From: a virus
Length of the DNA stretch: 38,516 nucleotides
Direction: 5' to 3' (one strand)
Virus record (IMG/VR): IMGVR_UViG_3300025133_000292
Coordinates: 1-38,516 of that record
The position numbers and the translations under genes were made by a program. This document shows, piece after piece, positions 16,901-34,863 of this stretch (its first letter is position 1; each line of letters starts with the position of its first letter). The notes under the pieces are model-generated. The model was not told where the DNA came from, did not search any database, and worked only from the letters and a program-made list of their open reading frames with translations.

Positions 16901-17357
16901 TATAGACCCTTTAGCTTATAGTGGTACAAATGCGGAAAAGAACGTGAAAGGGGACCAATTTATTTGTACAACTCCACCACCCGTTTCAGCCACTCAAGTA
17001 ATTCCCCTAGAGTATATGCTACACGTTCAATACGTTGACAGCGGAGAGACTTATGCTATAGGCTATCCTTGTGTTTCTGAAGTAGGCTCTCTTGCTTTCT
17101 ACCCAATTAAAGACCATAGAAGTAGATATAATACTGCTAGATTGGTGGAAACCTTAATGCGATCAACCCCTAACAGAGACTTATTCTTTTTCTTAACAAA
17201 GAATGGTCAGGTAGAGGGTGAGAAAATGAAGGGTAGCTACATGATGACGGAGCTTTCAACGTCAAACGGAGATACGGGCACTGATTTGTCTAAATACAAA
17301 TTTAATCTATATTCTGCTAGTGTAGATATAGATAAGAGCGAGTTAAGCAACAGATAA
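4998..17357 (+). CDS. Giant tail hub/stabilisation protein with adhesin-like insertion
   Basis: At 4,119 aa this is far longer than its relatives. Residues 1-55 (FTGGMDKDSDPRLIKNGDY, HAENIRN, GSVENIE) match the start of a conserved podovirus structural protein that I compare with P22 gp10-type stabilisation proteins. The characteristic continuation (VCVGAYEDKPKNRVYYFV, LYWTDNYNRPRKLNV, later FHENKVGRVLVGKDIL, GEYGCCLQPESIV, GSVLRLSTDGLTAISDNGMR) appears only from about residue 2,395. Between lie beta domains, coiled coils (about 617-790 and 1,615-1,655), two DUF1566/Lcl_C-type domains (signatures DWFLPSRTELKNIF at 1,099 and DWFLPSKDELAKIY at 2,068), QADVDA repeats (about 1,213-1,335) and a jelly-roll-like part (about 1,350-1,490). 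I infer a tail hub with built-in receptor-binding modules. No signal peptide or frameshift is seen. Confidence 0.7.
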   Translation: MAQDKRVFTGGMDKDSDPRLIKNGDYRHAENIRNVASSDGTSGSVENIESTQVVPFKFINETVDQIIEIDENGFIEEHPPQATQYSQDIFITVNKLEVGGEAQFTMFNVNESNQRVPLGHAYSQIEVFSSWDNVGNSIQNENTFEIIYNLFNSVDGTLSKNIPIVDRTSGEYTTASSSVDFTLNTPVAAGTTIKITITADNPGIDFILDFSSKYSGGVFWSSTVDEYPPYGRLWIEGQGNVTLGSTVSFEGVGEDNAITTTDGSPVGVTPTDGTQDLTQWTLEFNGAEPTTPQDPTNDKLSLFTWTELTGGGFAVEPFFEFGENLFNVGDDFEFSSAQTSLSTALVDHFTNFDSEILSPGVGAPLKTTVTTQGGNFMTGFPSGTKLNGESVSVFNNSANASTDDFYLLNNYHSNDSLGNFVDYSNTVDIQDNIITVEVGGSMSFVGDGDIVQQFPASIKTDRAYLITANISTYSWAKNNPFYFKVGNNLSPAITTTDSDFQWLIPASDIPLWQNNFQLICGDPASSAPSHENIPVEGDKLVMENLTISELKAPVSSLIVTIRAVNHFNLCFDVSAESVKDKLDAGSQISLVQQNFVSGVKATLISEIQSGATYDNLSDDNENLQDNINGLENDLAALQDKLTLMQNSYNSDIAQLEEAVDMDAANSLAISDSINSSKDDLNTQLSNVNNHIATILENLLSGQSENTAGEVAAMQEEINNLQDQLDEALAAASNAEADFQAAQEEYTEATTQAAADAAQDLLDASEEALASEEAAVQEVQDQLDDLHAAIYEAVTGVDASYGVEGDGLTSVNNLISAWDTLSSTSSGIEDKVQEMIDSLNQAFAFTTTSELGTTLETQLDSLQNIVSNVITLKNNLADNPTFTTMSDFWTHVHGIGDFTTDISNEINAINEATTAYANGTSDLSPIDIASLWTVATNNVQSSYTDLINSITALKAEAEAAFNNQNTATTQEQVDLIAEQLAVAQALVEGLESQIAAGGEVAIGNNLAGGVVADIDSANDQFYVIPSSYGYLHPDGTHYGGDHFPRVVWGGADVDNVEGGTSTTGGQELTQKIVDSYAQQNDGVESAAEFCNNYEGGGYTDWFLPSRTELKNIFENKASLTSDNVEFTFISPATAPKGTKFWTSSSHTNRSYAYLVYSEDASIVPEAKATIRNVLPVRVDTISAYTNDVLQTQLEDAQAEVASLQEEYDNSVANLGDDGVTQADVDAVQALLDAANALNAELQADLATAEANVGDGTTQADVDAAQDLLDASDITIENLETELETALANQEDGVSQADVDAAYADGAASVTPEDGITQADVDAIQALLDAANAAESNAGEQAVLAASSVELPNYIGNGNFNDNNPNGWTLGSSWSVVDERLKCSGTSNSHTLYRSSSIDTNITTTGNYIFSYKISGDTTGANLLVNLRFVDSAIEIYQSTHFDTTRDRTVTEIVNITEIPEGNGEFYIQINPYIQNGNYWNGTIDDISLYKVPDDAVISDHAIQQAIGGVSLLLWDFSNVVSQEGATFTQADVDAAAWAGYYMGLETGTVAVTENQESSYLNYLLRLLEKINTKYTETPTHYSQWAYDQASNYTIDSAKEAIDDAIQALIADGTSLGDLNSELSYEISIQEFTINNLNNTIANLNAKNEQLEINLLAFMGAISELSGFVDDFSTGSIQSVLDDLELNTIATSSYVNSFTETYNNNASEVETLIDVLKGKLQGIINNNTSFETAKETYRFVVFGEWDDNLNIGESFVHGGLLAAFGGGSAMGASLYMRNPEIEGYASEHMQVIELLNPDLTSGSSLTNWLLVSCNEFSEAPFMAIGQEDAHETITTDIDADLSEFTQSHLYHNHSHYKILPNPDGEDIVLRLTIKNFDKSSGFPGEAISEELNLVDIENTDITHGLVFEVSIISGPKSNKWEFTIESKAYLPYPGYGLNFDVLQGRATQWNLLDVPAVEAPVVTLGDEILSEVNKTFDGGSDDVTDLNWWGKNLEYNFPSSNPTEAGGVGLEYVNWHYVNNSIDVPFFSTDATIKPDHVLQIAVDLEPNTVYEIGIHAMQKELEVNKTYADWFLPSKDELAKIYANRSAMIASIATDSGGTSFDPLSGMYWSSSEHNSSNAWRVNMDNGITSTAMKSIVNLIRPIRVEKGAGAKTIGDYYNGGFVFHNVGIDVYIVYWHDIDGSGDENGSGNWNGGPWDRNNHGHIGTTGTGIGTGKDNTDDITDEFGVEFSRTESAATSADSFSYNATSLHDWSSLHVDLGSGDLTSTVNHPMSGYSNDLWTNVSMDAGSEYSNGDWGMYNSIDGGDKPFRIRTGPSYSSGYLRLRGSEIAPAGGFQGAVYAVSLKKAEGALMVATDRSYINVLGEKTMEGRTHEERNSSPVYGAALSNAYNGAARQIVKHRASGNAYTTTRIAGGYVCVGAYEDKPKNRVYYFVSHEGDSRKYDSILEYDLMNDAITTVYQDDIGATRFGSKSNTIEGNRILNFSEKHLITGVNKVDDVLYWTDNYNRPRKLNVELAKANDENIQKCKFIFKDSYFHKHESTVFIGGSENHPFKAGDDIYTQYHTTVQANYGYNGYAKVLAVIPKINDDVYLTVTKDSYTVTASEDHGLTSDNIGDWIGIHNTSTSLANYYEISNISGLTITLASPYNQDSKAAAYPLSFNSVNVAGIITDCPWFWNTTSATGLVLYADPEGAYSPLISYGSVEEKSKYFDVVKHQPTHKPDTELKLDTTVATNNILDNVFQFKYRYHHVDEELSAYGPISDINIDHSFAANFPLNASNYAATKNKIEVHYEDTISDVKNIELVGRKGNDGKFFLIDSIPNNFINYLKKLKNDLILIPEYEYANDEVSSKINFYNNGSYPFVDAVDSGKLFDAVPKLAKAQTMLSNNRLAYGNVLEGYDNTNMVVSSGFSGSGAPTLESKTEDVLFTQEPTYHHSGDTFWLRGSHEKCQYRPEIDLSTLDLDATKAQTLELNFSFEFSCRSSKVSSSRYRRAGNFSGRWNITGISSNAELAQFIVNRIGAGDFEGGCNKVRSFPAYLTNKQQISASVVGNTGIIKIKMVSARANGNGFTNGVVSTLFNVNSRTIAGKFISGTVGLGSFKTGAYHNFGIAYFDETNRCSFVNVAPDYGAVGQEIVDGKDTTIKTFNGTRCYNKFYSELGGPDLGTSSSVNISIYNKPPEWATNYQIYYTGNTTVDEFIQMTVIDAVRGSGEDEQIYLSLSSLKGENWSYNQANNSQIDYDFAPGDRVRFVSYNPGNGRRKYAEYVDLEIAGVDLYSSGNDDPISEDGYFLRVNDPKNTAVSVIDGIDGSTSTVDISHAGLSGGEDGTGYEELVVEIYRPKKNIDEDFLVYYEVGDKIPIANGYHSGDATQSGSFIFNREVGSEISEQPAIVNVSSGDIYFKPRNMVVNSTGSDSDTFFPEDYYLNDFHRTNHYSIGRINVINSNAAERRLEASVYYSEPYSSTGSVNGLSSFNLANSPYFDYNKDFGSIQALKTIDDDLLIFHENKVGRVLVGKDILNTASAEGLVSLSTNVIANYVNLYTGEYGCCLQPESIVKYGNKFYFVDIKRGSVLRLSTDGLTAISDNGMRDFFRDIGEMYVIYDPESQENQVFNLVAGYDPKYDEYIVTLPAVYERDEGNWDNESDSFDEIADTPLNIRPTKVFWAKTLAFNESTDRWTSFYSFHPEYFSRVGKQFIGFKNGYLWKHNMTDRGYQKLFTNKAVSITPVGYNSCYGYQFNSKLQFPFNIEPSSVKTYNAISLESDTKLFTSMQTNIGQTAKGPNNIDGYDSSISTSIGYRKVEGNIVNGVYSSNIITGFNTRFYEDIKKGDSIKIWGKYRGRHTYVIRVVKEVLSNTLLSLTAVSQLDFDKSYMEVIDYKTKEGVQYSQIPFVSSVDRPGGYEFNTSTQGDGSEIIGVGLASSENISKNGNIYRVSNENLPLVEFNKSMSVIDMTPGASYIYHAYVDGMFNVEDIDPLAYSGTNAEKNVKGDQFICTTPPPVSATQVIPLEYMLHVQYVDSGETYAIGYPCVSEVGSLAFYPIKDHRSRYNTARLVETLMRSTPNRDLFFFLTKNGQVEGEKMKGSYMMTELSTSNGDTGTDLSKYKFNLYSASVDIDKSELSNR
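8638..8992 (+). repeat. Coding repeat: QADVDA units inside the giant hub gene
   Basis: Four copies of [TS]QADVDA occur in this stretch (near 8650, 8760, 8875 and 8938), three of them followed by QALLDAAN or QDLLDAS. A fifth, FTQADVDAAAWAG, follows near 9577, and a degenerate TQAAADAAQDLLDAS lies near 7245. Units are introduced by glycine/aspartate turns (DDGV, GDGT, EDGV, EDGI). The DNA differs between copies, so the amino-acid pattern appears to be what is kept. It would form short helices spaced by turns, suited to a stalk or trimeric fibre. Confidence 0.7.
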
Positions 17358-18486: not shown

Positions 18487-19926
18487 ATGGCTGGAGAGGG
18501 TTTATTTTTCACAGGTACTGTTCTTAAGAATAATAGAAACCTGTTATCTGAAGAGAATTCTAGGCAACAACTTGCCATGCAGCAGGAGCAGCTTGAAATT
18601 CAAAAGCAGGGTGCTGCTGATAAAAGAAAAGCACAAAGACAAGAGGGATTCAAGAAGTCTCAGTCTTCTTATGACCTTTCATCTATACAAGATCCTAAAC
18701 TAAGACTTGCTTTAGCTAATAAGGTTAAAGAATTAAATAAGTTCTCTGGAGATAATTGGGACAATGATGACCCTGAAGTACAATCTCAGATTCAGGATAT
18801 GCGGTCTAACATCACATCGCTTGCACAATACGCTTCACAGGTTGACACTAAGATGCAACTTTACAACCCTTTAAACGAGGAGTCTAATAACCTTAGATAC
18901 AATCAAAATGAGGATGGGAGTCGTATAATAGACTCAAACTATGACGCTATAATTAGCGAGATGGAGAGTGGTACTTTTGACCTTAACTCTAGGTCAGCAT
19001 CTTTTAAAAATGACTTTGATGGTCAGATAAAGAAGGAAGATACGATTCCTGCTTATAAAGCTTTTTTCACTGAGAATCAAGGAGATTTCTTAGGGTCTGA
19101 TAACAATACTTATCATGGCTTACTGCCTGGGTCTAAGGAGGAGTTCTTGAATGACTTTAAGAATGACCACGTAATAAACGCTTCGACTAACGATTTCAAG
19201 TCTACTCAGGCTGAGAAGACATATACTTCTGGAGAAACATTTGAAATAGATGGTCACTACTACACTGGACTAGAGGCTTACCTACTTGAGGTTGAGGGAC
19301 AGAGAAATGTTGACTCTATCAAGGAAAGTGAGTTGGCTAGATTTATACCTGGCTCTGAATCTTTTAACGAAGAAGATCATAATAAGTATGTTGACTACCT
19401 TGGTGGTAAGATTTGGGATAGAGAATCTAAGGGCATAAAGTCTAGATTAACAGGGAGAGCTAAACCTACCAAAGAAGAAAAGGATAAGATAACTCAAGAG
19501 GATATTGATCTGTATACAGGAGCTTCTAAGGATATTGTTTATTACGGTGATGTTGAGTTTAAATCTGATAACAACCTTTACCAAGACGTTACAGGTAGTA
19601 ATATTAAGGTATCTCTAACTCCTGAGACTTTAATTGAAGGGCAGGGGCAACTACAAGAAACCTTTAATGACGAGTATATATCCGATGTTAAAGAAGCTAA
19701 TAGACCAGTAGAAGGAAAGGTTCTTTCGGTTGGAATAACTTCTGATAATATGCCTGTAGCCTCAGTTGAGTATGGAAGCGGTCAATACTTAATACCTTTA
19801 TCCATAATAAGTGGGAAAAAATTCCAGGCTGGGTCTACAGCTTATAAGCTTTACCAACTAGCCAGCCAAGATATAGAACAACCAGCTACTCAAGGGGTTG
19901 GAGCAAAATATAACAAAGAAATATGA
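18487..19926 (+). CDS. Virion protein of unknown role, 479 aa
   Basis: A soluble, charged protein. Residues 20-60 are glutamine/glutamate/lysine-rich coiled coil (NSRQQLAMQQEQLEIQKQG). The remainder is mixed helix and strand rich in aspartate, asparagine and serine, with no enzyme motif I recognise. It is the middle gene of three tightly linked genes: it begins three bases after the 362-aa gene, and its TGA overlaps the ATG of the 2,593-aa gene (ATGA), indicating coupled translation. An internal-virion or ejection-complex partner is the likeliest reading. Confidence 0.45.
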   Translation: MAGEGLFFTGTVLKNNRNLLSEENSRQQLAMQQEQLEIQKQGAADKRKAQRQEGFKKSQSSYDLSSIQDPKLRLALANKVKELNKFSGDNWDNDDPEVQSQIQDMRSNITSLAQYASQVDTKMQLYNPLNEESNNLRYNQNEDGSRIIDSNYDAIISEMESGTFDLNSRSASFKNDFDGQIKKEDTIPAYKAFFTENQGDFLGSDNNTYHGLLPGSKEEFLNDFKNDHVINASTNDFKSTQAEKTYTSGETFEIDGHYYTGLEAYLLEVEGQRNVDSIKESELARFIPGSESFNEEDHNKYVDYLGGKIWDRESKGIKSRLTGRAKPTKEEKDKITQEDIDLYTGASKDIVYYGDVEFKSDNNLYQDVTGSNIKVSLTPETLIEGQGQLQETFNDEYISDVKEANRPVEGKVLSVGITSDNMPVASVEYGSGQYLIPLSIISGKKFQAGSTAYKLYQLASQDIEQPATQGVGAKYNKEI

Positions 19927-22900
19927 ACGAGGAAGCTTTAAAAGACGCACACAACCTGTTTACGAATACAGGATATAACGGAGATGTAAACGAGTTTCAA
20001 ACTTTATTATCTGATAATGCTGAGGCTTTTGCAGACTCTTATGGTTTGTTTGCTCAGTCTGGGTACAATGGTACAGAAGATGAGTACAAAGAGTTGTTAG
20101 GGTTAAAAAAAAAAGATTCTTCAGCGTTACAAAGTGCAGTCTCTCCAGAGGATACAGGGGTTACTCCATCACTATCGGAAGATGGTCAGCCTTCTTTGGT
20201 ACAACTATCTCAAGATAGCTTAGACGAAAGATTCTCTGGGTTTAAAGACCTCCCTGTAGACGAACAAATTTCCCTTATAAAACAAGAAGAGAAGAGACCC
20301 TTTTACGAGGCTAAAGGGGTAGACTATGATAAATTTTTATCTTCTCAAAAAGAAAAAGAACAGTTTGACTTAGACACCTCAAAAGAAAGTAGAGGAAGGT
20401 CTAGAGATGAGTTTGAAGTAGGGAAGTATCTTACTCAAACTGAAGATGATGCTTTTGAGGCTGAAGGGGAATATAATAAAGCTAAATACGAACAAGCTAT
20501 TGCTAACTATTCTCCAGACCAATTAGAGGAACAGCTTGAGAAAGAAAATATTGACTTAGGATATATTCCAACAGAGTTTATAAAGGTTAATGGAGAAAGC
20601 ACCAGTATTAAAGGCTTAGAGAGAAAGCTATACGATCAAGATTTCATAGACAATCTTCAAGCAGGTAACGTCTCTATAGATATAGATAACCCTCACAGTG
20701 TTGAATCTTTAGAATATTTGTCTGACCTCGCTACTAGACAGGCAGAGTCTGGTGGACAATGGGAAGATTTAGCTGAATCTTTTTACGCTGGAGCTTTAGA
20801 CTTATTAGTAGCTGGTCCTCTAGAAGTTCTTGAAGGAGTTGGTGCTTCCGCTAATCCTTACCAACAAGCTATGTATATGATGCGTGGTGGTGAGTTCTCC
20901 AGTAAAGTCCATAAATATGCTAATAAGGTTCGTGAGAAAACTAGGGTTTATAGTGAAGATGCTATAACTAAATCTCTCCTTAAGGGTAATTTCTCAAACG
21001 CCATGTTCCAGACTGGTAACGCTTTAGCAGAATCAGCTCCTTTAATCCTTTCTATGTATGCTTCTGCACCTTTGAGGTTAGGTCAACTTGCAACCCTTGG
21101 TTTTGCAGGGGCTTCCGCAGGGGGTATACAATCTCTTGAACTTAAAGAGCAGAGATTAAAGGGTGAGATTGATATATCAGATGGTATGCTTTTACTTAAC
21201 GCTGCCTTAACTGGGGCTGCTGAAGCTGTATTTGAAAGATATACTTTGGACGCTGTAAACGCTGGTAGAAAGTTATTGAAGATGGGGAAAATGGACGCAC
21301 CCGAAATAGCTAAGAAATTCGTAGAAGGATTTGGAAAGAGCTTATTTATAGAGGGGGGTTCTGAAGCTGGAACAGAGTTATCAAACTCAATCACTAATAT
21401 ACTTACTGGTACTGAAGAGTACACAGGCATAGAGGATATTGCAGTAAGATTATCTGATGCAGCCATTGTTGGGGCTATTATGGGTGGTGGTATGCACACT
21501 ACATCTCACTTAGCTAAATCTATGGCAGAGGCTAGACATAAAACATTAAATGAAAATATATCTGTATTATTTACTTTAGCGGATGGTTCAACTAAAGAGA
21601 TGAGTAGAGCTGAAGCTTTAAAGTTTGTTAAAGACCCTGAGGTGGCATCACAAGTAAGAGATAATACTATAAGCATGGATGCCTCTATTAATGACGTAGC
21701 CAAAAAAGAACTAGAAGAAATAGTTTACGGATTCTATGCTCCTGATGCTATTGCTGCTAGGGAGGTTATGTTTGATAAAGAAAAGGTTGTTCAGGATTTA
21801 GCTGACAAATTAGAAACATCTAAAGAAGTTACTCCAGAGGACGTTAACGCTTTAGCAGACGCTATGGCTGAAGTGGAGGCTGAGGGTAAGGTTAACGAGT
21901 ATAATGTTACAGATAGAACTGTTGCTACTAGGAAAAGAGTGGCTAAACTTCTTAAAGATAAAGGAGTAGAGATCGTTGACGCTGTACAGCAGCAAGATAC
22001 GTCTATGTCTGAGGTTACTGAAACAACAGATGCCAACAAGATAGACAGTAAAGAGCAGTACAGGTCTATTAAGAAACAAGTTAAAGATGGGAAAAAGAAG
22101 CCTACATTCGTTAAATCACAGAACCAGCCTGGAGTTAAGATAGAGGGCGAGAGCGTTCAAACATCTGAAGTAACTCAAGGTAGGTTTAAAAGTGTTTCTG
22201 CAGCTAGGAATGCTATGAAGGAATTCGAGCTTAAACAAAAAGCTGCTAAAGATGGTAAACTCGTATCAGACGAAGCTTTCCCAATTAATAATAAAGAGTT
22301 TATTAACACTAAAAAGGAAACCCTTGACGAGATTCCTAAAGAGGTTTTAGATAAAAACGAATACCATATAATATCCCCTAGCAAAAAGGGTCTTAACGCT
22401 CAGGAAGAAGCGTCTAGGATGGATAAACTTAAGGCTGCCTTAGATGATACTGGTGCTAAATACTACACCGTTAAAGGCGTTTATAATGGTGTTGTTGAAG
22501 AGAGTCTAGTTATTACTGGTATAAATAACGCACAGGCTTTAAGTCTGGGAAGAAACTTAGGTCAAGAGTCTGTATTCTCTTCTAAGGATGGTCTTATGTT
22601 TGGTAATGGTAGTGTAGCCCCTCTTACTGGAGATGTGGTTAAAGGACCTGAGGCTAGGAGAAGAGATAACCTTACAATAATGAATGTTGGTGGTAGAAAG
22701 GTTTCTATGCACACTGGAGTCGATAGAGCTAATATGAGTTACGGTAAAAACTTTAACTCAGATAATATACACAGACTAGACGAGAATGACCCCAACTATG
22801 ATAGTGAACTCTTTGAGGGAGTTCCTGAAGATCGCAAACGTGCTTTAGGCTTTGCCTTTAAATTACTTAGCTCTATAGGTGGTCTTAATGTTAATATTGT

Positions 22901-25900
22901 CCGTAATAGCGAGGCTATGGCTGGTCAGATGAAACAGTTAGGGCAAGACTCAGACTCTATAGCTAAAAATAAGAGAGCGTCCTTCTTTAGGGCTGCTGAT
23001 AAAACTATATACGTAAACCTTGAAACGGTTCAGGGTAACACTCTATTCCACGAGATTATACACCCTATGGTTGATTTCATTAAGAAGACAGACCCTGCGT
23101 TGTACAGTAAGATAGAGAAAGAGGTTTCTGAGAGTAACGTAAAGAGACGAGTTACTAAAGATGGTCGTAGACTGAAAGGCTCTTATATGGAGTGGGTTAA
23201 AGCTCAACCAACTTACGCTAACCTATCAAAAGAAGCTCAAATCGAAGAGGCTTTTGCTGAGATGATGGGTGACGCTGCTTATGGTCACTTCGTAAATAGA
23301 CAATCAACGCTTGGTAGGCTTAGAGAGTTAATGAAGGAAATCCTTAAAAAGATTACTCCTTTAAAATTCGATAACCCTGAGAGTGTGAGTCTAGATGATC
23401 TTTCCTTAACTGACATACGAAAGAACTTAGCTGGAGCTTTGGTTGATGGTAGAACCATTACCGTTGGTGGAGTTGAGTTTGAGGTTGGAGATATTCAAGC
23501 CGATAAAGAAAAGGTTAATGACGAGATAAGAGCTCAGGTTAACGAAATGGAACCTAATAATGATCTTGATGTTGCGGATATAGATATATCAGATGATGTT
23601 CAAACTCAGGAGATTAGATTCCAAACCCCCGAATATTACCCTAACTTTGATGTTTCAAAAGTCAATAGAGGTAGTATAAAAGAATTTAACGGTCAGAAAG
23701 CTACTCTTTTAACTATGGATAGGTCAGCATCTGGCGTGGTTGTTTCTCCAACTGGGGTTAAGCACGAGTTTAATGGTGGGGTATTTTATCCTTATCAAGA
23801 AGGTACTGGGGTGTGGGCATTTTCCACAATACAGGCAGCTTCTAAATTAATCAACAAAGCCAAGGAAAGTGACGGATTAGTATTCTTAACCGCTATGGCT
23901 CCAGGGTCTATTGATGGTAGCGTAAATATGTTTGATTACGTAATGAAGGAATTTGATCAGGCTATAAAAGATAAGAGAGCTTCTAAAAAAGAGGTCGTAG
24001 ACTTCCTTAACAAGAAGATGACTATTAAATCTTTTGATTCTAAAGCTAGAGCAGAGGGGATAAAAACAAAAAAAATAAAGTCTGTAAAAGAGTTTAGAGA
24101 CTTAGTTCTATCCTTACCTAAAGCTTTTGGTGTTAGGAAAGATATAATTAGTAAATCTATCAGGGGTAAAGTATTACCTAAATGGGGTATACCTTCTCAT
24201 AATGAAATGTATGACTTTGTAAATCAAGATATTATAAAAGATTTAAAAGGAAACCCTATAGTTGCTGCAATTAGAATTGATACAGAGGCTGGGTATATAG
24301 ACTCTAGAACTGATGATAGTATAAAGGATCACCCTACCTACCCTATCGTTGTTAAAGGAGAGCCTTTAATGATATTCGATGAGACCGTAGACGCTAGTGA
24401 TATTTGGGATGAGTTAAACCTTGCTGATAAGTTTCTAATAGATAGTAAAACAGGTGAACCTTTAAGTGAGGGGAGTACTCAATCTAGAAGACAGCAGAAA
24501 ATACTAATGGCTCAACCTGTTATTGATTTAAAATTCCAAGAGGCTACTGAGGAAGAGGTTATCTCAAACTTCTTGTCTGAGCAGAAATACTTCCAATCAA
24601 CAAACCCTCACGCTTGGGCTGTTGACGAGGTAAAGGAGGAGACTTTAAAAATCTCCCAAATTAGAGAGTTTAAAGGGACTTTTGGTGTCGTTGCCCCTAA
24701 TGGGGATATTAAAGGTGTCTTTAACCCTGGAAAGACAGGAGAGAGGGGGACACTTAAGGGTCTTATGCCTCTACTAATTAAAGCTGGGGGTAGTAAACTT
24801 GATAACTTCGATGGTGCTCTTACAGGTATGTATGAGAATCTAGGATTTAGGGTTGTAGCTAGAACCCCGTTCAACGAGGAGTACGCTCCTCCAGGATGGA
24901 TTAAGGAATTACATGGTACTCCTGATGTTGTGGCTATGATTTATGACCCGAATGCAGAGGTTGTATTCGAAGAGAAATATTTCCCTGACCCAGAAACAGG
25001 ATACGGAGAGATGATTGAGTATAGGGACTCTCACGTTAGGTATCAGACACCCGATGATGAAGGAACACATAACGTTTATAAGTCTGGATTAGCAACTATA
25101 GCTTGGGATATTAGTAAAGCTATTATAGATTCTGACTACAAAGCAGGAAGGTATTTAACCAAGTATATAGATAAAAAACAACAATACGATATACGACTAA
25201 CAACTCTTTTAGCTAAACCTTTTGGAACTCACTCTAATAAAGAGGTGAAGGAAATTATGGTTAGAAGTAAGGGTAATCTTAACGTGGAGCTACTTAGGGT
25301 AAGTGAGGCTAGTAATAAACTAAAGAAGGCTATGAAGGGTAGCAATCTTTCTGGGTCGGAAGTTAACGACCTTTTGCATAACCTAAACGAGGTTAAATCT
25401 ATGGAGGCTTCAGCCCTTAAAGAGGCTTTAATAGAGATGCGAACTCACATAGACTACTTAAGTAAGACTCTAGTAAGCGAAGGACTAGTCAAAGGACAAA
25501 CTCAATTTACGATAGATTCTAATTTAGGGGTGTATGTTACTAGGTCATATAAGCAGTTTGACGTTAAGGGCTGGACTCAGACAGATAACGACATTATAAA
25601 GAACGCAAAAGACTTCCTATATAGAGAGGCTAAGAAGGATAATCCTGAGGCTACAGAAGAAAGGCTACAGGAGATTGTTGGGGTGGCTTATAGAAAATTA
25701 ACAGAAGACAAAGAGTTTTTCAGGTCTTCAAACGGAGCTACTAATCTTGACGGTTTAACTAGGGTGAACTCTATATTTAAAGAGAAGAAAATCATACCCG
25801 AAGAGATTAGGGATTTATGGGGTGAGATTGATAACCCTTTATATAACTACAGTAATACCATCTCTAAGGTAGCTAGAACGATCTCTGCTGAAAGAATGTA

Positions 25901-27704
25901 CAAGGACCTTAACGAGATAGGTCAGGGTAAGTTTATATCAGATATTCAAACCCCTGAGACTTACAACGAGCTTGTGGGCTCTAAGTGGGGGTCTTTAGAG
26001 GGTAAGTTTGTAGATGAGGAGATGTTTGCTGTGATGAATCAAACAGTTAAAAACCTTGAGGGTAATTTGTGGTACGACTCATACATGAGGCTAGTACTCT
26101 TTAACAAAAAGATGAAGACTGTTTGGAATCCTGGGACTCACGCTAAAAACATTATAGGTAACACATCTTTTGCTATTATGAATGGTCATATAGGATTTAA
26201 CGGTGGTATGTATGAGGATGCTAAAACATCTATAAAAGCTATTCGATCCCTTAAATCCCCTGAGCTTAAAGCTCTATACTCAAAACTTGTAGCCTTAGGT
26301 GTTGTAAACTCTTCGGCTTCACTTCAAGAGATAAGAGGTATAGCTGAGGATATTAACGATACTAAGTTTGACTTGTCTGAATATTTAGATGAGAAGAGTG
26401 GTAAAATTCAAAAGCTTATGGCTAAAGCTGCAAGAGCTACAGGTAAGCCTATTAAATATCTTGATAAGAAAGCGATGCAAGCTTATCAGGCAGAGGATGA
26501 TGTTTGGAAAATATTTGGATACTTATCTGAAAAAGCAAGATACGTTAAGGCTGGGATGGATGCTAAAGCTGCTGAAGAGTTAGCTGCTAAAAATATTAGA
26601 AATCTCTACCCTAACTATAACGAGATACCTCGTATTATTAGATACTTAGGTCGTTCCCCAATAGTAGGTTCTTTCGTTGCTTTCCAGGCTGAATCTATTC
26701 GTAACGCTAAGAATACCGTTCTTTTAGGATTTGATGAACTAAGTAGTAGTAATCCTGAGATGAGAAAGATTGGTGCTCAAAGAATTGGTGGTACTCTAGC
26801 TACAATGACCCTATTAGAGGGGCTACAGCTTTACACTGCACAATTTCTAGGTGAAGCCTTGGGGTTTGGTGGAGAAGACGATGAAGAGGTTGAGGATAGA
26901 AAGATGAGGTTACTACTCCCTGAGTGGGACGCTGCAGGTAATATAGCCTATATGTTTAAAGGAAAGTTAGATTCTAAACAAGCAAAAGACAAGCAGACAG
27001 AGGGTGATCGCTATTTCGATTACATAAACTTCTCTAGTATTTCGGGTGTTGGTTACGCAAAGGATATAATTAGGTTATCCTTCTACGATCTTGACACTCA
27101 GATTGGTAAAGAGTCTGCAATGAATACCCTTAAGAAAATATACGCACCATTTCTAGGACAAGAGATGACGTTAAAGGTTATGATTGACGCTTTAGGGAAT
27201 AAGGGCGGTAAAGTATATAACCCTTCTGAAAATGGTATTAAACAAGCTATAGATATAGTGACTTTTATTGGAGAGCAGGTTAAGCCAGGAGCTGTTAAGT
27301 CAGGGTTAAGACTGAAAGAATCCATGTATGATCTTGACTCTGAATTAGTTCCAGGATACGAAGCGTTAGCTTTATTTGGGTTAAGAATTAGTAGAGTTAA
27401 CGTGAATAAAGGACTGGGTATTAAGAGTAACTTTATTTACAAAGATATGATTAACACAGTAGATAAAAGCATCTTAAGAGATAGGGCAGCTTTACTTAAA
27501 GAGGCTGAGGAAAACCCACAATTTGATGAGTATCTAAACCAAATGGCTGACCTTATAGGAGCTACTAGACTTAATAGCGTTTCTGGGGAAGATATTAAGG
27601 CTATACTGTACAACTCTAGGGTGAGCAAACCTGTTATAGAGGAAGCTTACTTGAGGTACTTAGATAGGTACTTAGAAGATGTTATTAGGGTTGATAGTAA
27701 ATAA
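19923..27704 (+). CDS. Giant internal virion protein, polyvalent type with HEIIH motif
   Basis: A 2,593-aa protein. The N-terminal 90 residues carry two short repeats (NLFTNTGYNGDVNEFQTLL and GLFAQSGYNGTEDEYKELL). Glycine/alanine-rich hydrophobic segments occur near residues 285-310, 365-405 and 515-540. HEIIH lies at 1,043-1,047, with a downstream glutamate in EEAFAEMMGD near 1,108, as in zinc metallopeptidases. Residues about 1,588-1,675 (GGSKLDNFDGALTGMYENLGF, PPGWIKELHGTPDVVAMI) resemble an acetyltransferase-like domain of large polyvalent phage proteins. WNPGTHAKNIIGN (about 2,070) and PRIIRYLGRSPIVGSFVAFQAES (split here for length; about 2,237-2,260) match the C-terminal domains of giant marine-phage proteins. 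I infer delivery into the host during DNA ejection; protease activity is unproven. Confidence 0.6.
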   Translation: MNEEALKDAHNLFTNTGYNGDVNEFQTLLSDNAEAFADSYGLFAQSGYNGTEDEYKELLGLKKKDSSALQSAVSPEDTGVTPSLSEDGQPSLVQLSQDSLDERFSGFKDLPVDEQISLIKQEEKRPFYEAKGVDYDKFLSSQKEKEQFDLDTSKESRGRSRDEFEVGKYLTQTEDDAFEAEGEYNKAKYEQAIANYSPDQLEEQLEKENIDLGYIPTEFIKVNGESTSIKGLERKLYDQDFIDNLQAGNVSIDIDNPHSVESLEYLSDLATRQAESGGQWEDLAESFYAGALDLLVAGPLEVLEGVGASANPYQQAMYMMRGGEFSSKVHKYANKVREKTRVYSEDAITKSLLKGNFSNAMFQTGNALAESAPLILSMYASAPLRLGQLATLGFAGASAGGIQSLELKEQRLKGEIDISDGMLLLNAALTGAAEAVFERYTLDAVNAGRKLLKMGKMDAPEIAKKFVEGFGKSLFIEGGSEAGTELSNSITNILTGTEEYTGIEDIAVRLSDAAIVGAIMGGGMHTTSHLAKSMAEARHKTLNENISVLFTLADGSTKEMSRAEALKFVKDPEVASQVRDNTISMDASINDVAKKELEEIVYGFYAPDAIAAREVMFDKEKVVQDLADKLETSKEVTPEDVNALADAMAEVEAEGKVNEYNVTDRTVATRKRVAKLLKDKGVEIVDAVQQQDTSMSEVTETTDANKIDSKEQYRSIKKQVKDGKKKPTFVKSQNQPGVKIEGESVQTSEVTQGRFKSVSAARNAMKEFELKQKAAKDGKLVSDEAFPINNKEFINTKKETLDEIPKEVLDKNEYHIISPSKKGLNAQEEASRMDKLKAALDDTGAKYYTVKGVYNGVVEESLVITGINNAQALSLGRNLGQESVFSSKDGLMFGNGSVAPLTGDVVKGPEARRRDNLTIMNVGGRKVSMHTGVDRANMSYGKNFNSDNIHRLDENDPNYDSELFEGVPEDRKRALGFAFKLLSSIGGLNVNIVRNSEAMAGQMKQLGQDSDSIAKNKRASFFRAADKTIYVNLETVQGNTLFHEIIHPMVDFIKKTDPALYSKIEKEVSESNVKRRVTKDGRRLKGSYMEWVKAQPTYANLSKEAQIEEAFAEMMGDAAYGHFVNRQSTLGRLRELMKEILKKITPLKFDNPESVSLDDLSLTDIRKNLAGALVDGRTITVGGVEFEVGDIQADKEKVNDEIRAQVNEMEPNNDLDVADIDISDDVQTQEIRFQTPEYYPNFDVSKVNRGSIKEFNGQKATLLTMDRSASGVVVSPTGVKHEFNGGVFYPYQEGTGVWAFSTIQAASKLINKAKESDGLVFLTAMAPGSIDGSVNMFDYVMKEFDQAIKDKRASKKEVVDFLNKKMTIKSFDSKARAEGIKTKKIKSVKEFRDLVLSLPKAFGVRKDIISKSIRGKVLPKWGIPSHNEMYDFVNQDIIKDLKGNPIVAAIRIDTEAGYIDSRTDDSIKDHPTYPIVVKGEPLMIFDETVDASDIWDELNLADKFLIDSKTGEPLSEGSTQSRRQQKILMAQPVIDLKFQEATEEEVISNFLSEQKYFQSTNPHAWAVDEVKEETLKISQIREFKGTFGVVAPNGDIKGVFNPGKTGERGTLKGLMPLLIKAGGSKLDNFDGALTGMYENLGFRVVARTPFNEEYAPPGWIKELHGTPDVVAMIYDPNAEVVFEEKYFPDPETGYGEMIEYRDSHVRYQTPDDEGTHNVYKSGLATIAWDISKAIIDSDYKAGRYLTKYIDKKQQYDIRLTTLLAKPFGTHSNKEVKEIMVRSKGNLNVELLRVSEASNKLKKAMKGSNLSGSEVNDLLHNLNEVKSMEASALKEALIEMRTHIDYLSKTLVSEGLVKGQTQFTIDSNLGVYVTRSYKQFDVKGWTQTDNDIIKNAKDFLYREAKKDNPEATEERLQEIVGVAYRKLTEDKEFFRSSNGATNLDGLTRVNSIFKEKKIIPEEIRDLWGEIDNPLYNYSNTISKVARTISAERMYKDLNEIGQGKFISDIQTPETYNELVGSKWGSLEGKFVDEEMFAVMNQTVKNLEGNLWYDSYMRLVLFNKKMKTVWNPGTHAKNIIGNTSFAIMNGHIGFNGGMYEDAKTSIKAIRSLKSPELKALYSKLVALGVVNSSASLQEIRGIAEDINDTKFDLSEYLDEKSGKIQKLMAKAARATGKPIKYLDKKAMQAYQAEDDVWKIFGYLSEKARYVKAGMDAKAAEELAAKNIRNLYPNYNEIPRIIRYLGRSPIVGSFVAFQAESIRNAKNTVLLGFDELSSSNPEMRKIGAQRIGGTLATMTLLEGLQLYTAQFLGEALGFGGEDDEEVEDRKMRLLLPEWDAAGNIAYMFKGKLDSKQAKDKQTEGDRYFDYINFSSISGVGYAKDIIRLSFYDLDTQIGKESAMNTLKKIYAPFLGQEMTLKVMIDALGNKGGKVYNPSENGIKQAIDIVTFIGEQVKPGAVKSGLRLKESMYDLDSELVPGYEALALFGLRISRVNVNKGLGIKSNFIYKDMINTVDKSILRDRAALLKEAEENPQFDEYLNQMADLIGATRLNSVSGEDIKAILYNSRVSKPVIEEAYLRYLDRYLEDVIRVDSK

Positions 27705-32748: not shown

Positions 32749-33237
32749 CTAACCTAGCCACCACAAGAAGGTCGCAAGACCTATCACGTAGCCTAAAAGA
32801 ACCAACAGGATATTAGGAAGGACATCTGCAAATGTCATCTTCTTCTCAGAATTTATTCCCTCATTTATTCCCTCACTTGTTCCCTCATTTATTCCCTCAC
32901 TTGTTCCCTCATTTATTCCCTCACGTATCTTCTTACCGCCATGGTAGTTTAAGTATTTCGCTGAGTCTGCATTCCATGACGCTTCATACATCTTTAGAAA
33001 TTCATCAAACTCTGACTTAACATCGTGTTTTTTAATGTCTTTATCTAAGTCTTGATCTATCTCGCCAAAGACTGATGTATTTATAACGACAACCTCTCCC
33101 ATGCTACGTTGGTAGTGTTCCTCTAAGTCCACAAAGGATTCTCCGCATTGGCAGTAATCCATAGACCATCTTTTAGCGCTGTCGGATGTTTGGATACTAT
33201 CACAGTATCCGCATCTCCATTCTAATAGTGTTCTCAT
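32749..33237 (-). CDS. Cys-rich N-domain, repeat linker and C-terminal membrane anchor, 162 aa
   Basis: Residues 1-35 hold CGYC and CQCG, spaced like a four-cysteine zinc ribbon (WRCGYCDSIQTSDS, MDYCQCGESF). A polar middle contains ASWNADSAKYLNYHGG (about 86-101), identical at DNA level to a piece of the next gene upstream. Next are six four-residue repeats, EGIN EGTS EGIN EGTS EGIN EGIN (about 106-129). A C-terminal membrane helix (VLPNILLVLLGYVIGLATFL) follows and ends the protein. There is no signal peptide, so it would be tail-anchored with the ribbon in the cytoplasm. Its start overlaps the stop of the upstream gene by four bases. The N-domain resembles short conserved phage proteins; the rest looks assembled by recombination. 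Confidence 0.6.
   Translation of the reverse strand: MRTLLEWRCGYCDSIQTSDSAKRWSMDYCQCGESFVDLEEHYQRSMGEVVVINTSVFGEIDQDLDKDIKKHDVKSEFDEFLKMYEASWNADSAKYLNYHGGKKIREGINEGTSEGINEGTSEGINEGINSEKKMTFADVLPNILLVLLGYVIGLATFLWWLG
32851..32922 (-). repeat. 12-bp minisatellite, six units
   Basis: On the + strand six 12-base units in the order A A B A B A, where A is ATTTATTCCCTC and B is ACTTGTTCCCTC, cover 72 bases with no other change. Unit length is a multiple of three, so copy-number change would alter the linker length of the 162-aa protein without shifting the frame. Confidence 0.95.
32936..32977 (-). repeat. 42-bp direct repeat, copy 1 (copy 2 at 33493-33534)
   Basis: The 42 bases are identical to 33493-33534, and both copies are read in the same frame, giving WNADSAKYLNYHGG in two adjacent proteins. 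Sequence similarity ends abruptly on both sides. This points to recent recombination or gene conversion, since third positions have not diverged. Confidence 0.95.
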
Positions 33238-33638
33238 TCGCTTTGTTTTACTTGATGAATTTTACTCAAAGTCCAGACGGTTGTAAACCTACCATCTATG
33301 GCGTTACCCCAGATATTGACTTTATCTTCTTTTGTATTAACGCATATTTTAAAGGCATCATGTTCAGTATAATAACAATCTGTATAGTTGTTAGGGCTGT
33401 TGTAATAAGCCCACCAAATCTTTTTCACCTTATCTTCCTCTAACTCAATAGCGATAAACTCCTTAGTGTAGGCGAACTTGGTTTTCTGCCATCCGCCATG
33501 GTAGTTTAAGTATTTCGCTGAGTCTGCATTCCATTCACGAAACTCTGAATACTGAGACTCCCATATTTTAAGGTCAGTATTTTGAGCTTGTACTAAGCCC
33601 GAAAATATAACGCACAAAATTAATAATACTTTTTTCAT
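33234..33638 (-). CDS. Secreted protein, 134 aa
   Basis: A Sec signal peptide, MKKVLLILCVIFSGLVQAQ, with a flavobacterial AQ/N cleavage site, precedes a mature domain of about 115 residues rich in aromatic residues (FREWNADSAKYLNYHGG, KIWWAYYNSPNNYTDCYY, FTTVWTLSKIHQV). Two cysteines in the mature part could pair in the periplasm. It contains copy 2 of the 42-bp repeat. The leader reads ATTAACTAAAAACTAG before the start. A role at the envelope, such as superinfection exclusion or lysis, is possible but not shown. Confidence 0.55.
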   Translation of the reverse strand: MKKVLLILCVIFSGLVQAQNTDLKIWESQYSEFREWNADSAKYLNYHGGWQKTKFAYTKEFIAIELEEDKVKKIWWAYYNSPNNYTDCYYTEHDAFKICVNTKEDKVNIWGNAIDGRFTTVWTLSKIHQVKQSE

Positions 33639-33657
33639 CTTCCTAGTTTTTAGTTAA

Positions 33658-33759
33658 TTAATCATCTAATATTACAGGGTCACAATGTTCCATACAAGCG
33701 GAACAAAGATCGGTTTCCTCTATTACTGGTGCAGTACAACAATTTGATATTATTTCCAT
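33658..33759 (-). CDS. Tiny zinc-ribbon-like protein, 33 aa
   Basis: Reads MEIISNCCTAPVIEETDLC and then SACMEHCDPV before the stop. NCC plus CSAC plus EHC gives the cysteine/histidine layout of a small conserved zinc-ribbon family that I know from Bacteroidota phages (usually NCCGA at the start and C-x-x-C-x-E-H-C later). The gene is below common length cut-offs. It starts about 25 bases from the structured RNA region, which would form its long leader, and ends 19 bases before the 134-aa gene start. Confidence 0.65.
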   Translation of the reverse strand: MEIISNCCTAPVIEETDLCSACMEHCDPVILDD

Positions 33760-33783: not shown

Positions 33784-33911
33784 TAATCCTTACAAGTTGA
33801 CCAAAAGTGAGCCCTGAGTAAGACATCTCCTACCCAAGAGCTTTACTTTTGATGCTAATTTTGCCTAAGCTCCCCAGCTTAGGACTTCTTACCTATTGAT
33901 TCTCATTAACA
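33784..33911 (-). other. Structured untranslated leader with a strong hairpin
   Basis: CCTAAGCT-CCCC-AGCTTAGG (33864-33883) is a perfect 8-bp hairpin with a four-base loop. A wider inverted repeat CAAAAGT (33802-33808) / ACTTTTG (33845-33851) encloses a short GC-containing segment. No gene fits. It lies between RNA element A and the 33-aa gene on the minus strand, so it may belong to the same RNA. Confidence 0.5.
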
Positions 33912-33988
33912 GGATTTTCACTATATGCCCAACTCACGCTTGGTGCTCTCGTATGATGTGCAGCACTCACGTAGCTTGCTCACGCACT
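33912..33988 (-). ncRNA. Repeated structured RNA element, copy A (no tRNA insert)
   Basis: On the minus strand it carries three CGTGAG motifs, each able to form a hairpin with a C-G-closed GTGA (GNRA) tetraloop: TGC-GTGA-GCA; AGC and AC around a bulge, with GT-GCT; and CCAA(G)C-GTGA-GTTGG. GTGCT/AGCAC brackets a short apical part, GCACATCATACGAG. Block for block it matches copy B at 34361-34580. In the first hairpin TGC/GCA is TAC/GTA in B, a compensatory change that supports pairing. The family is unknown to me, and orientation is inferred from neighbours. Confidence 0.55.
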
Positions 33989-34012
33989 AACATTCATAGG
34001 GTTAGAAATCGG

Positions 34013-34030
34013 TATTTAACAAGTTAAATA
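34013..34030. promoter_or_regulatory. 18-bp palindrome upstream of RNA element A
   Basis: TATTTAACAAGTTAAATA is an 8-2-8 palindrome lying just upstream of element A and overlapping a block (34020-34040) that resembles one upstream of copy B. It is a good candidate operator or promoter part. Confidence 0.45.
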
Positions 34031-34052
34031 TCCCCTAGAATGTCTTAATATT

Positions 34053-34136
34053 TTACGACTTATTACTACTTCTATATTCTTCGTAAGACAAATAAATAGC
34101 CAGTATTGCCATCGCAATTAAAATAAACTTATACAT
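34053..34136 (-). CDS. Tiny membrane protein, 27 aa
   Basis: MYKFILIAMAILAIYL forms a single membrane helix, followed by a charged tail (SYEEYRSSNKS). It lies five bases after the stop of the 63-aa coiled-coil gene, with the same direction. Too short for family recognition, but the composition (basic start, clean helix, polar tail) and the tight spacing support translation. Confidence 0.45.
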   Translation of the reverse strand: MYKFILIAMAILAIYLSYEEYRSSNKS

Positions 34137-34141
34137 AACTC

Positions 34142-34333
34142 CTAGCTTTTTATTTTTTTATACTCATTTACAATGCCAACCAGTTTAGCGACATTAACAT
34201 CCTTAGCGTCTATCATAGCTGTTAATTCATCTAATAATGGAGTCAACTCTTCTAGCTTACTTTTAATATTCCTAATATCAGTAGCCAATTTTAACTCACT
34301 TGTAACGTGTTTGAACTCTTTATTTTTTTCCAT
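34142..34333 (-). CDS. Small coiled-coil protein, 63 aa
   Basis: Almost entirely heptad-like helix: ELKLATDIRNIKSKLEELTP, LLDELTAMIDAKDVNVAKL, VGIVNEYKKIKS. There is no cysteine, signal or membrane part. It follows RNA element B by about 27 bases, so B may act as its leader. Function unknown; a small oligomeric regulator is plausible. Confidence 0.5.
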   Translation of the reverse strand: MEKNKEFKHVTSELKLATDIRNIKSKLEELTPLLDELTAMIDAKDVNVAKLVGIVNEYKKIKS

Positions 34334-34360
34334 CTTGGTTTAAGTTACTGTAAGATTTCT

Positions 34361-34580
34361 GGATTTTCATTGTATGCTCCACTCACGCAGGAAGCTCTCG
34401 TTGTCAAGGAGGCAGGACTCGAACCTGCACGAAGGACATCACAGCCTTTATGTGGACTTGTACCACTTCCGAACCACCTAGCTCCATACGGTTAATTACT
34501 CCGACTCTAGATAAGAAATTCTGCGTTTACCGTTTCGCCACTCCTTGGTGTGCAGCGTTCACGTAGCTTACTCACGTATT
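34361..34580 (-). ncRNA. Repeated structured RNA element, copy B, carrying a tRNA-like insert
   Basis: The outer blocks 34361-34400 and 34551-34580 align with copy A (33912-33988): shared strings on the minus strand are GAAAATCC, GCATA, GCGTGAGT, CGAGAGC, GCTGCACA, AAGCTACGTGA, CGTGAG and AAGC. Where copy A has only TCAT between GCTGCACA and ACGAGAGC, copy B has the complete 144-nt tRNA-like RNA 2. The conserved outer stems would present the tRNA-like part as a domain of a larger RNA, or act as its processing signals. Confidence 0.55.
34404..34547 (-). tRNA. tRNA-like RNA 2, 144 nt, no standard anticodon arm
   Basis: On the minus strand: acceptor CAAGGAG (34547-34541) pairs fully with CTCCTTG (34411-34405), with A at the discriminator and CAA rather than CCA after it. 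The D arm GCG-AAACGGTAAA-CGC is Leu-like. The T arm GCAGG-TTCGAGT-CCTGC is perfect. Between position 26 and the T stem lie 94 nt instead of the 30-40 expected. GAATT can pair with GGTTC (34521-34517 and 34475-34471), enclosing ATCTAG/CTAGGT. GTGG-TACAAGT-CCAC makes a hairpin with a seven-base loop but no U33. Its 3' half shares blocks with tRNA-like RNA 1. No anticodon can be named with confidence. Confidence 0.6.
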
Positions 34581-34671
34581 AACTCACTAGATTGAGACAA
34601 ATTAAATTAACCTAGCAAGGGTTGAGACTAGACGATAATTAGGTTGCAGTATCACGTACTACGAATAGCCT

Positions 34672-34863
34672 CTAAAATTTTCCTCTTATTCTACCTCCTG
34701 GTCTCTTGATGATCCCTCCAAGACCACCATTCTCCTTTATAGTATCCATATACTCGTCACAGCACGTAGCCTCAGGAGATACAATACTTCCATCAACAAC
34801 CTTAATACTATGCTTTGTTAGTTCTAACTCTTTGTCGCACTTACTACATTTAAACTTTGCCAT
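34672..34863 (-). CDS. Zinc-ribbon protein, 63 aa
   Basis: CSKC at residues 6-9 and CC at 34-35 give a likely zinc ribbon around KELELTKHSIKVVDGSIV. The tail is glycine/arginine-rich (GGLGGIIKRPGGRIRGKF) and basic. Short proteins starting MAKFKCSKC and ending with a G-G-I-x-R-x-P-G-G tail are widespread in phages of Bacteroidota; their role is unknown, nucleic-acid or ribosome contact being the usual guess. It starts three bases after the preceding stop. Confidence 0.65.
   Translation of the reverse strand: MAKFKCSKCDKELELTKHSIKVVDGSIVSPEATCCDEYMDTIKENGGLGGIIKRPGGRIRGKF

Follow-up and report, generated by a model that had tools for sequence, protein, structure and literature searches.

A repeated 28-nt RNA module, found with structured surroundings in more than 100 contigs of uncultured phages, was identified as the building unit of a structured element in phages of Bacteroidota. 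Sequence comparisons support a compact H-type pseudoknot as its fold. RNA-level pairing, modular architecture, junctions with tRNAs and genomic position of the element are demonstrated here. As to its role, it is tentatively regarded, at a probability not far below even, as a cis-acting structured leader of an early transcript that is able to host a tRNA as cargo.

Module copies in the window

The window, i.e. the whole stretch of DNA analysed, is an IMG/VR virus record of 38.5 kb. The virion protein family phrog_13704 and tblastn matches (about 28% identity) place it near Flavobacterium 'elemo', Cellulophaga and Maribacter phages. Genes for a DnaB-type helicase, a DnaA-C-terminal-domain protein and a replication initiation protein are located at its right end (28-38 kb, minus strand), and the element is sited in minus-strand intergenic space of this replication region. 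The structural half of the genome harbors two giant ORFs on the plus strand, 4998-17357 and 19923-27704, specifying 4119 and 2593 aa. At the start of ORF 33234-33638, a 64-nt stretch (33600-33663, minus strand) shows 81% identity to Tenacibaculum phage pT24.

A preliminary description of this DNA had reported two minus-strand copies sharing a series of blocks with three CGTGA motifs each, and this was borne out. The block CGTGAGNAAGCTACGTGARYGCTGCACAYCA is present at two sites only, 34546-34576 and 33954-33984 (minus strand), and was contained in none of 100 shuffled sequences; three CGTGA and one CGAGAG are present in each copy. While the duplication is real, the repeated unit is the 28-nt module and not the whole region of 77 or 220 nt. 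Four modules arranged in two pairs are present on the minus strand, at 34578-34551, 34402-34375, 33986-33959, and 33953-33926. Copy 1 reads module-CATCA-module and copy 2 module-tRNA-module. In copy 2, the tRNA occupies the site of the 5-nt linker CATCA, at a distance of 3 nt from the first module and 1 nt from the second. The following parts were assigned, with the basis of each assignment in brackets:

34579..34672, minus strand: 5' domain of copy 2, with a stem GAGGCUA/UAGUCUC (34672-34666 with 34630-34624), the hairpin AGUACGUGAUACU and a second stem-loop (sequence)
34551..34578, minus strand: predicted pseudoknot module 1 of copy 2, TACGTGAGTAAGCTACGTGAACGCTGCA (sequence; covariation in the family)
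34404..34547, minus strand: 144-nt tRNA-like domain between the modules of copy 2 (Rfam RF00005, 35.5 bits; ARAGORN; fold)
34375..34402, minus strand: predicted pseudoknot module 2 of copy 2, AACGAGAGCTTCCTGCGTGAGTGGAGCA, 1 nt past the tRNA discriminator base (sequence)
34053..34136, minus strand: tiny membrane protein of 27 aa, MYKFILIAMAILAIYLSYEEYRSSNKS, located between copy 2 (upstream of it) and copy 1 (downstream of it) (sequence reading)
33987..34044, minus strand: 5' domain of copy 1, stem-loop CATTCTAGGGGATATTTAAC...GAATG (fold)
33959..33986, minus strand: predicted pseudoknot module 1 of copy 1, TGCGTGAGCAAGCTACGTGAGTGCTGCA (sequence)
33926..33953, minus strand: predicted pseudoknot module 2 of copy 1, TACGAGAGCACCAAGCGTGAGTTGGGCA, after the CATCA linker (sequence)
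33891..33915, minus strand: hairpin 1 of unit B, AUCCU...AGGU (covariation, 48 arm pairs)
33863..33885, minus strand: hairpin 2 of unit B, GUCCUAAGC GGGG GCUUAGGC (covariation data for unit B)
33797..33858, minus strand: unit C, UUAGC followed by a long hairpin (CAAAAGU...ACUUUUG; AGCUCU...AGGGCU) (sequence)

The first base of the 5' domain of copy 2 is the final base of the stop codon of ORF 34672-34863. This domain also precedes the modules of three relatives (L006, L033, L053), where the joint is without a tRNA, and the 5' domain of copy 1 was detected in L031, L047, L050, and L053. The counterpart of unit C in relatives consists of UCAGCG and a hairpin.

Fold of the module

The consensus of the 28 nt is W-A-C-G-W-G-A-G-Y-N-[NNN]-W-R-C-G-U-G-A-R-Y-[N'N'N']-G-C-A, with conserved GAG, GA, and GCA segments. 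In the predicted pseudoknot, ACG at positions 2-4 pairs with CGU at 16-18 (helix a), and positions 11-13 pair with 23-25 (helix b, up to 5 bp). Over 58 distinct modules, these crossing helices were paired in 97.1% of the cells with 72 double-change cells, and the covariation score was 0.563 compared to at most 0.106 with slid partners. In helix b both sides vary at all three pairs, and in helix a a change from C-G to A-U occurs at 3-17. The latter pair was tested further by scans leaving positions 1-3 free and fixing either U17 or G17. Of 12 distinct sites with U17, 11 had A at position 3, while the 47 sites with G17 had C in 44 and U (wobble) in 2 cases. The crossing pair was thereby confirmed with its partner base free (Fisher p = 5e-10, an optimistic value because related contigs are not independent). 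Among newly found modules, helix b extends to 5 bp with compensation (GUGAC/GUUAC, GUAAC/GUUAC, AUAAC/GUUAU), and pair 9-27 forms only where 10-26 also pairs. Folding energies of single sequences were no better than those of shuffles. The pairing data show that the module functions at the RNA level. To our knowledge, it is among the smallest covarying pseudoknot modules.

Strong covariation upholds the earlier view of a structured RNA, but not the GNRA-capped hairpins proposed for it, since the bases of the CGTGA loops pair with the upstream ACG. A GNRA double hairpin was rejected, with 81% of cells paired overall and 67.2% in the first hairpin versus 97% for the pseudoknot. The stem 1-3/8-10 around the GNRA sequence is not kept by compensation in relatives, pair 2-9 being unpaired in 32 of 58 modules. 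Likewise, the compensatory change TGC/GCA versus TAC/GTA exists in the two window copies, but relatives pair this hairpin in 67% of the cells. The sequence AGUACGAGAG presumably resembles the sarcin-ricin loop of 23S rRNA; helix a uses those same bases. A CRISPR-repeat mimic was also considered and dropped, the stems varying freely.

Distribution in phage genomes

Viral contigs were first scanned for exact matches to an 18-base pattern, which yielded 54 contigs. Inspection of the sequences flanking these matches, together with 97 stretches obtained with another pattern, established the unit length of 28 nt; chance matches to the latter pattern (L061, L064, L067, L073, L095, L107, L110) were left out. 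Altogether, the count reached 179 modules at 130 loci, a small number of them chance matches; reversed sequence contained none. Contigs of 60-96 kb contain a single cluster of one to four modules. The arrangement is no one-off frame of two copies: the module recurs in more than 100 contigs, mostly without a tRNA. The virion protein of the window is present in some of the long module-bearing contigs and absent from others, and the best named matches of the helicase of one 96-kb contig (L012) are Cellulophaga phi14:2 (Crassvirales) and Flavobacterium psychrophilum phages. Because of these two observations, the element is assigned to at least two lineages of Bacteroidota phages.

Searching eight named phage records with a model of the module gave nothing convincing (best 14 bits), and blastn matches in isolate and GenBank phages were only chance or unrelated ones. 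In bacterial genomes, the module was absent in two strict pattern scans. When the window and its relatives were compared to Rfam 15 with gathering and E-value thresholds, tRNA was the sole family listed, and the covariance models of GOLLD and ROOL found no match; that the element belongs to no known family, as suggested before, agrees with this check, in which only the tRNA part was matched. A description of the element was not found in the open literature, subscription papers and preprints being outside the scope.

Exchangeable domains between the modules

The domains separating successive modules are closed, each by a terminal helix of about 7-9 bp. In most phages these are hairpins (38-78 nt in L040, L069, L074, L080, L083, L089, L092, L112, L115), in others tRNAs or oversize tRNA-like RNAs. 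tRNA-like domains with short A-rich linkers on either side are found in the window, L037, and L079. The exchangeable cargo suspected from the window alone is thus seen among relatives as tRNA, oversize tRNA-like RNA, and hairpin domains. Past the last module, the order is hairpin unit B (GUCCU...AGGC), often a second small hairpin, a UCAGC block with the long hairpin C, and a start codon. For unit B, the first pair (G-C/A-U) and inner pairs covary over 48 arm pairs. Judged by sequence, the smallest elements are a lone module (28 nt) or about 130 nt long. In four loci (L120:1349-1376, also L059, L108, L114), the module contains the UGA stop codon of the preceding gene (...FERE FPA UGA), and a decayed module at L040:1961-1988 has its 3' half incorporated into the end of a coding sequence (...GAGTTAAATC).

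The cargo of the window (34547-34404, minus strand) had been described as a complete tRNA-like RNA of 144 nt restricted to copy 2, and this was confirmed: it matches RF00005 with 35.5 bits (gathering threshold 29), an 83-nt middle part being unmodelled, and takes the place of the CATCA linker of copy 1. Like phage tRNA genes, it has acceptor (7 bp), D (with GG), and T (GGTTCGAGTCC) arms that match the model. It differs from them in its length and in three hairpins between the D and T arms, which replace the normal anticodon/variable region and leave no clear anticodon. ARAGORN made no call unless an intron was allowed, and then proposed a doubtful Thr(ggt) whose intron would be 50 nt long; the fold shows extra hairpins. 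A second version of this cargo is present in L079 with 93% column identity. A tRNA 3' end, of one of several tRNA types, coincides with the module start (-1 to +2 nt) in 16 of 135 cases, and a dedicated scan detected tRNA-module junctions in 23 contigs. The junction tRNA of L144 is an ordinary one, while L137 and L139-L143 contain an oversize tRNA-like RNA of about 147 nt just before the module, which ARAGORN does not report. Besides the one in the window, several unrelated oversize tRNA-like RNAs (about 140-160 nt) with normal acceptor, D and T arms and a long extra region recur in these phages (L080:728-1070, L091 around 13125-13290, L137, L139-L143).

Gene neighborhood

The element is intergenic; only two of 106 modules overlap an ORF of at least 100 aa, both in antisense orientation. 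The modules are co-oriented with up- and downstream genes in 84-85% of cases, and 35 of 84 non-redundant loci have a DnaA-like gene some 0.9 kb upstream. Many elements start within 2 nt of the upstream stop codon or overlap it. In 31 of 64 loci (48%), the first ORF downstream codes for a tiny membrane protein with a single helix, compared to 5.7% of control ORFs (p = 9e-20); in roughly the other half, a different gene follows. Usually, about 10-20 nt separate the end of the whole element from the start codon of the membrane-protein gene; the median distance from the last predicted hairpin to the ATG is 14 nt (49 loci). A lone module in L158 and L079 precedes this ATG by just 28 or 32 nt. The membrane proteins following the element in the 49 loci are diverse, single-helix proteins of about 23-98 aa, many with a Lys-rich tail.

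In the window, the membrane protein (34053-34136, minus strand), which had no Pfam match, directly follows neither copy: copy 1 precedes a cysteine-rich ORF of 33 aa and copy 2 a coiled-coil-like ORF of 63 aa. ORF 34672-34863 (minus strand) encodes a zinc-ribbon-like protein of 63 aa (CxxC, CC, basic glycine-rich tail), which adjoins many copies of the element, up- or downstream. It was considered as a fixed RNA-binding partner and rejected; though neighboring many loci, it was found in none of the long contigs searched, a search that had no positive control.

No promoter enrichment was detected at module starts. Between element and gene, a strict promoter match is absent in most loci. In one clade (L001, L024, L028, L044), a Bacteroidetes-type -7 box (TAnnTTTG) lies between the element and the membrane-protein gene, and promoter motifs are located 110-257 nt upstream in the tRNA-bearing clade.

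Possible functions of the element

The placement in operons right before small genes and the leaders consisting of a lone pseudoknot favor a cis-acting leader with optional tRNA cargo. Because most loci are without a strict promoter match between element and gene, the element is probably part of the leader. It would be a multi-domain structured RNA in an early (replication-region) transcript of Bacteroidota phages, presumably transcribed as one RNA, with the pseudoknots as compact joints between independently closed domains, and hairpins B and C following. Because each joint would isolate its neighbors, a tRNA could sit in the leader, fold alone and be excised by ordinary tRNA processing with the rest undisturbed. 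The element may thus act as 5' leader and processing region setting the expression of the downstream small gene. Against this reading, the -7 box in the clade mentioned above would take the element out of the membrane-protein mRNA, the window copies are not directly before the membrane protein, and about half of the loci have another gene downstream.

The main rival, not likely although it carries real weight, is an autonomous, trans-acting ornate phage RNA like GOLLD or ROOL, which folds and may multimerize, with a tRNA in its linker and small genes adjacent by chance. One RNA gene would give the single module cluster per long contig, and the elaborate multi-domain architecture with pseudoknots, large in some phages, the upstream promoter motifs of the tRNA-bearing clade and the embedded or adjacent tRNAs also fit. 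GOLLD is a large structured phage RNA with pseudoknots near tRNAs and sometimes carries tRNAs within its linker region; ROOL is phage-encoded, has multiple pseudoknots and is often near tRNA islands. RNAs of these families comprise several hundred nucleotides and form discrete, abundant transcripts and homo-oligomers. The element differs from both by the missing Rfam match and by its size, the minimal forms of 28 to 130 nt being far below that of GOLLD or ROOL, and from GOLLD by the repeated H-type pseudoknot, the variable cargo and the usual position before a tiny membrane-protein gene. We know of no comparable repeated module in ROOL. Starts at or overlapping upstream stop codons fit an operon-internal element, and by eye no terminator-like end was seen ahead of the next start codon. 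Compared to known structured phage RNAs near tRNAs, the repeated minimal pseudoknot and the exchangeable cargo are new. A more general reading, rather unlikely in our estimate, is a modular RNA architecture in which the minimal pseudoknot is a general joint. On its repeats, phages would line up folded domains that can be swapped (tRNAs, oversize tRNA-like RNAs or hairpins), and evolution would assemble and re-assort this chassis, which is perhaps cut at the joints.

Cutting is central to another proposal, that of a processing signal in which the pseudoknot is a nuclease site or a tiny self-cleaving motif separating tRNAs or other domains. Theta ribozymes of Bacteroidota and Bacillota phages have their cleavage site at tRNA 3' ends (PMC10879173), a parallel to the tRNA 3' ends that meet the module almost without a gap. 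This theta-like position is the one seen in 16 of 135 modules and in the 23 contigs of the dedicated scan; the majority of modules are without an adjacent tRNA, and the tRNA-module linker varies from about 1 to 5 nt. A theta/HDV-like fold comprises a P1 of about 7 bp starting at the cleavage site, P2, P3, P1.1, and a catalytic C in J4/2. By eye, the 7 nt after the tRNA are without a complement at the required place, and there was no HDV-type match in Rfam. Theta ribozymes of gut phages and the module are alike as small pseudoknotted RNAs directly at tRNA 3' ends, but the module has an H-type topology with two short helices instead of the nested double pseudoknot, and its cleavage is putative. 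A processing signal is considered quite unlikely. At the start of an operon segment, the element might also act on RNA polymerase as a nut/put-type antitermination signal; as would fit such a signal, it is small, structured, co-oriented and present at one locus per genome in the early region. No terminators were mapped behind it, and a pseudoknot retained amid freely varying stem sequences is not specific to this function. Such a signal appears very improbable. Finally, the DnaA-like gene upstream of many loci could indicate a DNA-level element, e.g. an iteron-bearing replication origin, in which inverted repeats give a false impression of RNA pairing. RNA is favored by the crossing covariation, which includes G-U pairs, by the placement on a specific strand and in a leader position, and by the tRNA domains. 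In addition, the GC-skew of the window is unchanged at 34 kb, and a DNA-level element is considered extremely unlikely.

Implications

The element constitutes a well-supported structured RNA family, not contained in Rfam, which occurs in at least two lineages of Bacteroidota phages and in which the swapping of cargo between modules is visible. It lends itself as a clean system for studying the embedding of tRNAs in mRNA leaders by phages, and it ties a conserved RNA to a class of uncharacterized tiny phage membrane proteins.
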